Below, in pieces: positions 31,591 through 51,129 of a stretch of DNA of 64,000 nt. The position numbers and the translations under genes were made by a program. The DNA is taken from positions 1,364,001 through 1,428,000 of the forward strand of contig NZ_LT635455.1 of the NCBI RefSeq assembly GCF_900119915.1. Reading direction: 5' to 3'. The first letter of the stretch is position 1. Each line of letters starts with the position of its first letter. The stretch is from Olsenella timonensis. GTDB lineage: Bacteria > Actinomycetota > Coriobacteriia > Coriobacteriales > Atopobiaceae. The notes under the pieces are model-generated. The model saw only the letters and a program-made list of their open reading frames with translations, did no database searches and had not been told where the DNA came from.

Positions 31591-32328
31591 GTGATCAGGG
31601 CGGTGCTCTTCGATCTTGACGACACGCTGCTGAGGCTCAACCTCACGGCGTTCATCGCGCGCTACGTCGCCGGCGCCACGCGTCTGCTCGCGAGCGCGGC
31701 CCGCATGAGCCCCGCCGCGCTCGGCATCCCCTACGTGCGCGCGTTTCTCGCCATGGACGCCCAGGACCGAGAGGACTCCCTCACCAACGAGCGGCTCTTC
31801 AACAAGACCATCCTCGAGTCCACGGGCATCCCGCTCGACGACCCCGTCATCGCCGATCTCATGACCTACTACGAGACCGACATCGTCCCCTCCTTCTCGG
31901 GCGGCATCGTCTCGGCCCGCCCCGTCGACGGGGCCCGCGCCGCCGTCGAGGCGGTGCATGACGCCGGGCTCGTCTGCGCGCTCGCGACCAACCCGACCTT
32001 CTCGCTCGCCTGCGACCGGGCGCGCATGGGCTGGGCGGGGGTGAGCGAGGACGACTTTGCGCTCGTCTCGACCTACTCCAACTCCACGCGCTGCAAGCCG
32101 AGCCTTCGCTACTACCAGGAGTTTGCCAACCTCCTCGGCGTGCGCCTCGAGGAGTGCCTCATGGTTGGCAACGACGCGGCGCGCGACATCGTCCGCCCGG
32201 ACTGCGGGCTGCGCACCGCCTACGTCGGCCACGCCCGGCCCAAGGACGCCGTCTGGCGCGGGCCCATGGAGCGCCTCGCCCGCGAGCTGCCCGACCTCGT
32301 CGAGCGCCTGAACGAGAGCGACGCGTAG
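31591..32328 (+). CDS. HAD-family hydrolase
   Basis: The 245-residue soluble phosphatase-like protein has HAD motif I (AVLFDLDDTLLRLN), motif II (CALATNPTFS), motif III lysine in TRCKPSLRYYQEF and motif IV LMVGNDAARDIV. A helical cap (residues ~20-110) makes it a type I cap member. Start is GTG at 31591 behind GAGGGAGG. A histidinol-phosphate phosphatase role is conceivable since none is in the his operon, but nothing in the sequence shows this. It is followed by the repeat element in the convergent gap before glnA. Confidence 0.85.
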   Translation: MIRAVLFDLDDTLLRLNLTAFIARYVAGATRLLASAARMSPAALGIPYVRAFLAMDAQDREDSLTNERLFNKTILESTGIPLDDPVIADLMTYYETDIVPSFSGGIVSARPVDGARAAVEAVHDAGLVCALATNPTFSLACDRARMGWAGVSEDDFALVSTYSNSTRCKPSLRYYQEFANLLGVRLEECLMVGNDAARDIVRPDCGLRTAYVGHARPKDAVWRGPMERLARELPDLVERLNESDA

Positions 32329-32408
32329 CCACCCGACGCCCTTCTCGCCCTTCTCGCCCTTCGTGCGCTTCGTGCGCTTCCTCGCGTGCCCCTTTCGCGC
32401 GCTTCCTC

Positions 32409-32697
32409 GCCGAGTGTACGAAACTGTCCCTCAATTCTCGCGTAAATAAATCTTTTAGATTAATTAATACAACTTCAGCTATCGCGCGGATGGCGACTTT
32501 CGTACACTCGGCGCAGCGCGGCGTCGTCGGGCGAGAAGGGCGGCGCAACGCGGCGTCGTCGGGCGAGAAGGGCGGCGCAGCGCCGTCGGGCGAGAAGGGC
32601 GGCGCGGCGCCGTCGGGCGAGAAGGGCGGCGCAGCGCGGCGTCGTCGGGCGAGAAGGGCGGCGCAACGCAGCGCCGTCGGGCGAGAAGAGCGGGCGC
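32409..32697. repeat. Inverted-repeat plus tandem-array element, copy 1
   Basis: GCCGAGTGTACGAAA (32409-32423) and its exact complement (32498-32512) enclose 74 bp of AT-rich DNA containing AAATCTTTTAGATTAATTAA. Immediately after comes a tandem array (32519-32697) of six units, period 26-34 bp, with core CGTCGGGCGAGAAGGGCGGC. It fills the 423-bp convergent gap between the HAD gene and glnA. No start codon and ribosome site suggest a protein. The same design recurs at 50856-51058. Upstream (32340-32400), short repeats of CCTTCTCG and TTCGTGCGC lead into the element. Confidence 0.85.
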
Positions 32698-32751: not shown

Positions 32752-34842
32752 CTACACCCAGAAGAGCATGTTGTTGTAGGTGGGCACGGGCCAGTAGTCG
32801 GCGCCGCAGATGCGCTCCATCGCATCGACCGGGGCGCGCAGCGCGTCCATCGCGGGCAGCACCTGGTCGCGATAGGCGTCGCAGCGCTCCTGCGGATCCT
32901 CGACCGCCCGCGCGGCGGCGTTTGCCTCCTCGAGCTCGCGTGCCGCGACGTCAATCTGCGCGATCCCCTCGGTGAGCGAGCGCACGAGGTCCTTCTCGAC
33001 CGCGGCCTCGATCCCGATCTCCGCCTTGGTCGCCACGCTCGTGGCCAGGTCGCCCGAGTAGTCGGAGAGCGCGGGCGTGTAGAGGTGGCGCGCCATGTAG
33101 ACCATCGTGTTGGCCTCGATGTTGAGCAGCTTGGCGTACTGCTCGGCCTTGGAGACGTAGCGGGCGTGGATCTCTGCCTCGTCAAGGACGTGGTAGCGCT
33201 CGTAGAAGGCCACGTTCTCGGGCTTGACCATGCAGGGGAGCGCGTCCGGCGTGGTCTTGAGGTTGGGCAGCCCGCGCCTCTCGGCCTCGGCCTCCCACTC
33301 CTCGGAGTAGCCGTTGCCCTCGAAGAGCACGCGCTGGTGGTCGCGCAGGGTGTGGCGCACCCACCTCAGCGCCAGGTTGGTGAACTCGTCTCCCGTCTTG
33401 CCCTCGAGCTTGGTGGCGAAGCGGTCGCACTGCTCGGCAACCGCGGTGTTGAGGACCACATTGGGGTCGGCCAGGTTCTGCTGGCTGCCGCACATGCGGA
33501 ACTCGAACTTGTTGCCCGTGAAGGCGAAGGGCGAGGTGCGGTTGCGGTCGGTGGAGTCGCGCAGGAGGTCCGGCAGGGCGGGCACGCCCAGGTCCATGCG
33601 CTCGAGCTCGTGGACCTCCGGCTCCTCCTTGTTGATCAGGGCCTCCACGATCGCGTGGAGCTGGTCGCCCAGGAAGACGGAGATGATGGCCGGGGGCGCC
33701 TCGTTCGCGCCCAGGCGGTGGTCGTTGCCCGCGGAGGCCACGGAGGCGCGCAGCAGGTCTGCGTGCTCGTCGACGGCCGCCACGAGCGCGGCGAGAAACA
33801 CCAGGAACTGGAGGTTCTCGCTCGGCACCGCGCCGGGCTCCAGGAGGTTGCGGCCGTCGGCGCAGATCGACCAGTTGTTGTGCTTGCCGGAGCCGTTCAC
33901 GTACTCGAAGGGCTTCTCGTGCTCGAGGCAGGCGAGGCCGTGCCGCGTGGCCATGAGCTTGAGCTTCTCCATGGTGAGGAGGTTGTCATCGATGGCGAGC
34001 GAGCCCTGCTCGAAGATCGGAGCCAGCTCGTGCTGGGACGGCGCGACCTCGTTGTGCTTGGTCTTGACCGGCACGCCGAGCTTCCAGAGCTCGTCGTCGA
34101 CCTCCTTCATGAAGTCGTTCACCGTGGGGCGGATGGCGCCGAAGTAGTGCTCCTCGAGCTCCTGGCCCTTGACCGGCTCGCAGCCGAAGAGCGTGCGCCC
34201 GCAGTAGACCAGGTCGGGGCGCGCCTCGTAGTCCTCCTCCTTCACGAGGAAGTACTCCTGCTCGGGGCCGATGGTGGTGAAGACGCGCTTGGGCTCGCGC
34301 CCGAAGAGGGCGAGGACGCGCTTGGCCTGCGTCTCGAGGGCGACCTGGGAGCGCAAAAGCGGCGTCTTCTTGTCCAGCGCCTCGCCGGTGTAGGAGACGA
34401 ACGCCGTGGGGATGCAGAGGACCTCGTCCTTGATGAACGCCGGACTCGTGGGGTCCCAGGCGGTGTAGCCGCGGGCCTCGAAGGTGGCGCGCAGGCCGCC
34501 GCTCGGGAAGGAGGAGGCGTCCGGCTCTCCCTGGACGAGCTCCTTGCCCGAGAAGGACATGAGGATCGTGCCGTCGTTGATCGGGGTGAGGAAGCTGTCG
34601 TGCTTCTCGGACGTGATGCCCGTGAGCGGCTGGAACCAGTGGGCGAAGTGCGTGGCGCCCTTCTCGAGCGCCCACTCCTTCATCGCGTGCGCGACCTCGT
34701 TGGCGATGTCCAGGTCGAGCGGCTTGCCGTCGTCGATGACCTGGCGAAGCTCCCGGTACGTCGGCTTGGGGAGCCGCTCCTGCATCACGGCGTCCGTGAA
34801 CAGCAGGCTACCGAACTCCTGAGAGACCTTGTCCTTGCCCAT
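32752..34842 (-). CDS. glnN: Glutamine synthetase type III (GlnN)
   Basis: The 696-residue GSIII makes glutamine from glutamate and ammonia. Motifs of this type include [69 protein letters not shown] and [12 protein letters not shown] (ATP/glutamate site). Length near 700 and the long C-terminal helical domain distinguish it from GSI/GSII. ATG at 34842 has GGGAGAAAGG upstream. It lies with the nitrilase and the GOGAT subunits on the same strand, forming a nitrogen-assimilation block, but 190 bp and a separate leader isolate it from the nitrilase. No glnR or riboswitch signal was recognised. Confidence 0.96.
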
Positions 34843-50819: not shown

Positions 50820-50855
50820 GGGCGCGCCAGTCGAGCGCATGTCCTTCTCGTCAAT

Positions 50856-51058
50856 CGTCGAGTGTACGAAACTCTCGGTACCCGACTCCGTCTCAGAGTT
50901 CCTCAACTGGGAAAATGCTGGCGAGAAGAGCCGGTTTGGCGCATTTTTGCACCTGGTTTCGTACACTCGACGAGAAGAAGGGGGCTGCCGGAGAGCAGGG
51001 CGGCCACCGGAGAGCAGGACGGCTGCCGGAGAGCAGGACGGCCACCGGAGAGAAGGAC
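50856..51058. repeat. Inverted-repeat plus tandem-array element, copy 2
   Basis: CGTCGAGTGTACGAAAC (50856-50872) and its exact complement (50956-50972) enclose 83 bp. A tandem array of four 19-bp units (50983, 51002, 51021, 51040) follows, alternating GGCTGCCGGAGAGCAGG and GGCCACCGGAGAGCAGG forms. The arm core CGAGTGTACGAAACT is identical to copy 1 (32409). The unit core GAGCAGGGCGGC parallels GAGAAGGGCGGC of copy 1. It fills the 310-bp convergent gap between the phosphoesterase gene and galK. No protein-coding signal was seen. Confidence 0.85.
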
Positions 51059-51129
51059 GGCGGCACAAGGGAGCGGCGACGCAGCCGAGGCCGCGCCGCC
51101 GCCCGAGCGGGCACATCTGAGGGGAGGGG

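Follow-up and report, generated by a model that had tools for sequence, protein, structure and literature searches.

A dispersed family of two-armed intergenic DNA elements and a candidate partner protein

Introduction

What kind of sequence is a perfect inverted repeat that encloses AT-rich DNA, runs directly into a tandem array and lies between two genes facing one another? The question is raised by a locus in the 64,000-nucleotide stretch analysed here (the window), for which a first-pass annotation proposed an undescribed two-part element of repeat and array. The reading favoured below, judged from sequence and held at odds of about two to one (a probability of roughly 0.66), is that the repeat belongs to a family of dispersed sites of a nuclease-like partner protein, in an arrangement that would work in the manner of REPIN/RAYT.

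Sequences and searches

The window comprises bases 1,364,001–1,428,000 of its own genome (G000), a single 2.18-Mb contig, and the comparison set consisted of 31 genomes of the genus (given G-numbers) and 109 other genomes of the family; several genomes are fragmented or contaminated assemblies. A covariance model was built from 21 copies with paired arms and favours symmetric finds, so that the elements it matched are no unbiased sample. The 92 elements fetched (15 from G000, 12 from the first searches and 65 among the model matches listed, more being in existence) omit reverse-strand duplicates and retain orthologues, so that the rows lack independence; a script refined the arm ends, a few of which are off by 1–3 bp. 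The 15 pairs analysed in G000 do not include an outward-facing pair that occurs at two mirrored loci, nor a single case of an arm duplicated in tandem (40 bp). Gene calling around dispersed copies was crude, while both window copies are clearly intergenic. As a separate observation, loci of the G000 contig mirror each other over about G000:C1 2,080,620–2,176,737 (2,081,164 with 2,176,193, and 2,113,296 with 2,144,061; two arm loci and a paralogue), which suggests that about 48 kb are duplicated in inverted orientation at the end of the contig, perhaps through a fold-back in the assembly.

Two copies in the window

Copy 1 is built on two perfectly inverted 13-bp cores (32411–32423 and 32498–32510), and the perfect repeat extends to 16 bp (CGCCGAGTGTACGAAA; Table 1), so that the annotated perfection and 74-bp AT-rich interior hold and the annotated length of 15 bp does not. 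The gap was correctly described as convergent, since a HAD hydrolase gene ending at 32328 faces a gene for type III glutamine synthetase, encoded on the opposite strand with its 3' end at 32752, and the six tandem units said to follow the repeat directly are recovered by TRF (score 265). A shorter array on the left has a 9-bp unit absent from the first-pass annotation. The core matches the window four times against 0.57 expected, a number reached by none of 100 shuffles, and copy 2 (50859–50969) also occupies a convergent gap, between a metallophosphoesterase gene and galK.

Table 1. Features of the two element copies, in window coordinates
Feature	Position	Strand	Description
Copy 1, short array to the left	32337..32362		CGCCCTTCT x 2.9, complementary to main-array core
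Copy 1, left arm	32408..32423	+	CGC + 13-bp core CGAGTGTACGAAA
Copy 1, interior	32424..32497		74 bp, AT-rich, without central motif (class II)
Copy 1, right arm	32498..32513	-	inverted
Copy 1, tandem array	32509..32693		6.1 units of 32 bp, core GGGCGAGAAGGGCGGC; secondary, outside element
Copy 2, left arm	50855..50872	+	TCGT + CGAGTGTACGAAA + C
Copy 2, central motif	50903..50918	+	TCAACTGGGAAAATGC (class I)
Copy 2, right arm	50956..50973	-	inverted
Copy 2, array beside it	50976..51061		19- or 38-bp unit, secondary

The array was considered as a part of the element and rejected, since only 13 of the 92 copies have one and the units differ; it is accordingly judged secondary, and the two-part description lacks support. 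By the same TRF criterion (at least 2.8 units within 150 bp) arrays are present at 4 of the 15 copies in G000. They also occur beside 1 of 92 control stretches, which are largely coding, so that the association is a soft one.

The heptamer CTTCTCG, seen for instance at 32341 and 50844, is abundant in the window in its own right (91 occurrences against 13.7 expected, 78 of them as GNNCTTCTCG); 24 matches fall at least partly outside genes as crudely called, a density of 1.98 per kb compared with 1.04, and eight of the 24 are the repeats next to copy 1. The heptamer was at first considered as an uptake or Chi-like sequence, a reading since set aside: to judge by the C-GAG-AAG-NNC codon phase, the excess may come in part from GAG-AAG codons.

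A dispersed family with genome-specific arms

G000 contains 27 exact and five single-mismatch occurrences of the 13-base core, nearly all as inward pairs, and the copies are distributed round the chromosome. The prediction of many further copies in the genome and its relatives was thereby borne out, with 15 pairs analysed in G000 and covariance model matches (E<=0.1) in 29 of the 31 genus genomes, many of them weak, the best falling below 1e-8 in 15. Pairs with the exact arms are confined to five of the 31 genus genomes, none being found in the 109 other genomes of the family or in viral contigs; such pairs appear in records named Candidatus Olsenella pullicola, Olsenella uli An820, Thermophilibacter provencensis and an Atopobium MAG. 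Lone short-core matches in two other genera (G079, G136) were discarded as near chance by estimate.

The arm type tracks the genome, being CGAGTGTACGAAA in G000, CGAGTGTACGAGTT in G014, TGAGTGTACGAGTTA in G028, CGAGTGCGCGATATTC in G002, CGAGTGTTTGAAAGTC in G026 and CGAATGGACGAAATTC in G020; most genomes have one main type, and G005, G010 and G026 have two or three. The arms change symmetrically, with 185 changed positions mirrored in both arms, 34 altered in one arm alone and two differing. The centre, usually AACTGGGNAAACG or ACCTGCGNAAACG, does not track arm type and is absent at the threshold used from 11 of the 92 copies, window copy 1 included; the middle G+C is 0.20–0.44 in nine examined of these 11 and averages 0.56 in the other 83. 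Interiors mostly differ among copies within G000 or G014 and are alike within G002 and G011.

The candidate partner gene

In four genomes (G000, G011, G020, G026) two copies 1.3–1.5 kb apart flank the same gene of about 390 residues. The G000 gene (392 aa), at G000:C1:726423-727598 and so not in the window, has an element copy on either side, and the protein is encoded neither in the window nor in the searched DNA loci (best E 0.097). Relatives occur in all 31 genus genomes and, across the order, in 239 of the 297 genomes sampled, representing 80 of 107 genera. Nine of the ten close homologues have DJ-1 and/or ArgC neighbours (six lie between both, three have one at a contig end) and the tenth, in G005, has neither, so the gene appears to be vertically inherited, largely at a single locus. 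At this locus G009 has DJ-1, one element and ArgC with the gene absent, as if it had been lost through recombination between two flanking elements. In G023 (L151) and G026 (L156) element pairs 1.3–1.5 kb apart flank, in place of the nuclease-like gene, one whose sequence looks by eye like that of an aldo/keto reductase.

Profile searches place the protein loosely. The four close members (G000, G011, G020, G026) matched nothing in Pfam or NCBIfam at E<=1, and among 12 diverse relatives the MTES_1575 REase profile was matched by two (best E 0.005) and DUF559 and DUF2726 at 0.23, most members being matchless; a strong Vsr/DUF559-type PD-(D/E)xK match was obtained for none of these. SPxE, D, E and H are invariant in both protein alignments (22 of 22 and 12 of 12 rows) and are, we assume, active-site-like residues; their E-x-[DQH]-like motif shows no lysine. 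The C-terminal half is thus possibly nuclease-like, of Vsr/REase type, going by these weak matches. No solved structure matched at E<=1, no HUH/Y1 or other transposase match appeared for the four close members or, at E<=1, for the 12 diverse ones, PADLOC and PHROGs gave chance-level matches only, and the protein was found neither in phage or plasmid records nor, by a peptide-pattern scan, in viral contigs.

The gene and the elements go together beyond the four genomes in which the elements led to the gene. A close homologue (E<1e-98) adjoins an element in ten of ten genomes, nine by an arm-blind scan and G010 by the model. The scan, which accepts an inverted pair with arms of at least 12, lying 75–125 apart and within 260 bp of the gene, was run on 41 family genes (the 10 close ones, all 21 further at E<1e-65 and 10 of many weaker paralogues) and found 32 flanked, or 28 of 37 without the four discovered through their elements, against 2.9% of pseudo-genes placed at random in the window after removal of its two known copies. 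Of the 17 genes beyond the genus at the loci returned by the order-wide search, 13 have flanking elements of 122–137 bp (five of them on both sides), in a looser scan that allowed 350 bp, lacked a null of its own and counted as a miss L320, in which no reading frame was found; parallel families of gene and element thus occur elsewhere in the order. Family genes with no flanking pair number nine of the 41 and four of the 17, and the eight distinct paralogues of G000 divide equally into four flanked, by the looser scan, and four not.

The flanking arms differ by gene lineage, and in all eight genomes compared they differ less from the genome's own dispersed arms (mean mismatch 0–1.75 of 13) than, on average, from those of the other genomes (1.94–3.64). 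In four of the eight (G000, G010, G014, G023) another genome of the same arm type is nearer still, so that the matching is not one-to-one. A G000 paralogue at 1,690,298 has arms TTTTAGGCAGTTT; dispersed exact pairs with these arms, 117–120 bp long, number six each in G000 and G028 and two in G003, and CTACCTGC or CTAGCTGC are examples of their centres in the displayed stretches. The median number of model matches, counting both strands and weak matches, is 17.5 in genomes with a close gene and four in the other 21; elements with no close homologue are seen in G002 (at least seven elements), G003, G009, G013, G027 and G030, and G027 has two less close relatives of the partner gene.

Two further styles of element were noted beside the family genes. 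One paralogue (L330, G000:C1:17868-18857) is flanked on both sides by palindromes of 109–111 bp with internal repeats (TGTCCTGAAAA...). Beyond the genus the arms of elements from other families, at L311, L312 and L314 among others, frequently enclose another inverted motif, GAGTAG...CTACTC.

Arms that change in place

Orthologous loci indicate which parts of an element last. At the copy-1 locus G014 and G028 have elements of exactly 100 bp, as in G000, each with the arms of its own host type, and little of the interior is shared: G000 and G014 are 0.59 identical, where the best of 300 shuffles gives 0.55; G014 and G028 are 0.55 identical against a best of 0.56; and the 0.43 of G000 and G028 does not exceed the shuffled level. 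Arms and length therefore persisted here as the interior was largely randomised, and common descent of the G028 element would be read from locus and design, not from its interior. At another orthologous site, occupied in four genomes (L047, L050, L149, L155), the G023 and G026 copies (L149, L155) have a left arm of host type and a right arm of ancestral type. Standing copies thus seem to be kept matched to the host's arm type, and the updating of arms and not of interiors points to selection on recognition or to an arm-correcting process, not to debris.

The same loci are empty or differently filled in other genomes. The copy-1 gap measures just 79–123 bp in G030, G016, G025 and G013, and G008 and G011 have different palindromes there, by eye. 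The orthologue of copy 2 adjoins galK in G030 (interior identity 0.73), and in G001, G003, G008, G025 and G029 only 18–132 bp separate the matches to the genes neighbouring copy 2, against 303 in G000. In G004, G016, G020, G024 and G027 (L252, L254, L255, L257, L258) the galK locus has, by eye, a different palindromic element with arms like GATTAACGGGCAAAATTC or GATTAACACGCACAGTTTG and centre TTTCCTGCGGATAT, to be taken on this visual comparison as another family whose arms change together.

Persistence of arms and length around a randomised interior is also what operator pairs of a looping transcription regulator would display, the copies flanking the gene then serving autoregulation, and phased inverted sites suit looping. 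This explanation is nevertheless unlikely, as copies also lie downstream of the gene and in convergent gaps, among them both window copies, they multiply as units, and no regulator family was found for the partner protein.

Spacing and a probable reading of the double helix

The outer lengths of the 92 elements fall into narrow groups, five at 100–101 bp, 36 at 110–114, 46 at 119–123 and five others. Where the centre was found (81 elements) it lies 45–47 or 53–57 bp from the left end in 79 and 51–54 from the right in 72. The resultant at 10.5 bp is 0.78, and 0.70 after collapse to 43 genome-by-length classes, a value reached by none of 5000 uniform draws with lengths even over 99–124; the period is loosely fixed, 9.5–11 bp fitting about equally. 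On either side the centre takes two or three positions some 10 bp from one another, and steps to the left and right combine freely (44+50, 54+50, 44+61, 54+40). Steps of about 10 bp suggest duplex DNA read on one face, and their free combination argues against a fully paired hairpin.

The latter point bears on the proposal that an RNA or single-stranded DNA hairpin (a true REPIN, a terminator or a structured RNA) is the working form, with arms acting by pairing in a folded strand, as when the first-pass annotation offered a transcript with a lid hairpin. The arms do pair and their changes are mostly mirrored, L048, L148 and some others read as long near-perfect hairpins, and interiors fold unusually well in G010, G011, G023 and G026 (mean z -2.7 to -3.7). 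Pairing alone, however, would leave the arms free to differ, yet most copies in a genome share one or a few types, and the ~10-bp steps, measured on each side of the centre by itself, fit a double helix better than a hairpin. Interior folding is moreover ordinary in G000, G002, G014, G020 and G028 (mean z -0.3 to -1.0), and with a z averaging -0.49 over 15 copies in G000 and no Rfam match in the window the transcript lacks support in this genome. A hairpin as the working form is consequently held to be quite improbable.

Apparent copying of the unit

New copies seem to arise by copying of the unit within its arms, for pairs of copies in G002 have interiors 0.78–0.91 identical amid unrelated flanks (0.44–0.54), and copies in G011 have interiors 0.78–0.94 alike and flanks of 0.54–0.65. 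Identical interiors in G010 (L167) and G023 (L152) are a separate case, behind which fragmented or contaminated assemblies may lie.

Copying of this kind brings the elements close to ordinary MITEs, that is, transposon remnants whose arms would be terminal inverted repeats, and the elements are small, intergenic where examined, inverted at their ends and present in several copies, with similar copies amid unrelated flanks in G002 and element-free loci in related species. MITE copies normally share their interior. Here the interiors differ within G000 and G014 as arms and spacing stay, arms change in place at old sites, no target-site duplication was seen by eye beside the displayed copies, and the linked gene stays at one locus in nine of ten genomes and has no transposase match. 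The earlier suggestion of a miniature mobile element comes near the present reading, but its ordinary MITE form is a decidedly poor candidate.

A short invertible segment, a phase-variation switch with the arms as crossover sites, would likewise have inverted repeats about 100 bp apart, but interior orientation is kept between L123 and L161, L160 and L179, and L047 and L149, whose flanks are conserved, and both window copies sit in convergent gaps, which makes this reading very improbable. The replication or segregation site that the first-pass annotation thought the locus could be is a less probable reading, the copies being spread round the chromosome.

A proposed partnership of protein and sites

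The reading preferred here, dispersed sites of a nuclease-like partner protein, would work as follows. The protein, as a dimer or tetramer, would recognise from one face of the DNA both inverted arms, together with the central AACTGGGNAAACG-like site that most copies have, and so fold the element, about 100–120 bp, into a loop. Nicking or cutting there would fall to its nuclease-like half, and the unit enclosed by the arms would occasionally be copied into a new intergenic place. As the protein's specificity drifts, the arms of standing copies would follow and the interior would drift freely. Binding, looping, cutting and copying by the protein, and any benefit to the host, are extrapolated from the sequence patterns above.

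A broader claim, towards which we lean somewhat, is that a new class of protein–DNA partnership extends across the order, in which a vertically inherited nuclease-like protein has private families of two-arm, centre-marked duplex sites, specificity co-changes in place, and old copies are kept readable by host selection or an arm-correcting process. Protein and scattered sites look like an undescribed partnership; no description of such a system was found among titles and abstract openings of the open-licence literature, and one may be in print elsewhere. With more than one gene and site pair in a single genome and repeated arm switches between species, specificity co-change is directly testable, and the elements would offer a functional handle on a protein family so widely present in one order.

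Comparison with known systems

The families whose profiles are weakly matched by some of the partner protein's relatives are MTES_1575, called a Vsr-type REase in the available part of PMC3710099, DUF559 and DUF2726, and the accessible portions of the literature on these families mention no dispersed DNA partner. MITEs resemble the present elements in size, inverted ends and non-coding content; unlike them, the elements have differing interiors within G000 and G014, and no parent transposon was found.

The standard case of a bacterial enzyme, encoded once, that is maintained along with a scattered population of tiny DNA elements is that of REPINs and their transposases. According to the accessible portions of PMC3116915 and PMC8266576, REPINs are extragenic inverted-repeat doublets accompanied by a single-copy, largely vertical enzyme gene, separate families in one genome have each their own enzyme, and the ends are conserved with the spacer less so. 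To the extent covered by those portions, the present elements are alike in being small, dispersed, extragenic doublets with conserved ends and a less conserved spacer, in lying beside the linked, largely vertical enzyme gene, and in forming separate families within one genome, each with a gene of its own. The differences concern both partners. The partner protein has no HUH/Y1 transposase match, and the arms are not palindromes and share no GTAG/CGTC tag. Tag-like strings are seen in two arm types: one of the G005 types contains GTAG and, read on the complementary strand, the G020 type contains CGTC; an inner GAGTAG is often present in other families of the order. The enzyme class and the tagged palindromic ends that mark REPIN/RAYT systems are thus lacking, and the family is not a member of that group. 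It is further set apart by its conserved central site, its ~10-bp phasing, its in-place arm change and ordinary interior folding in G000. If the reading proposed here is right, a nuclease-like protein family appears to have reached a REPIN-like arrangement with a different DNA design.
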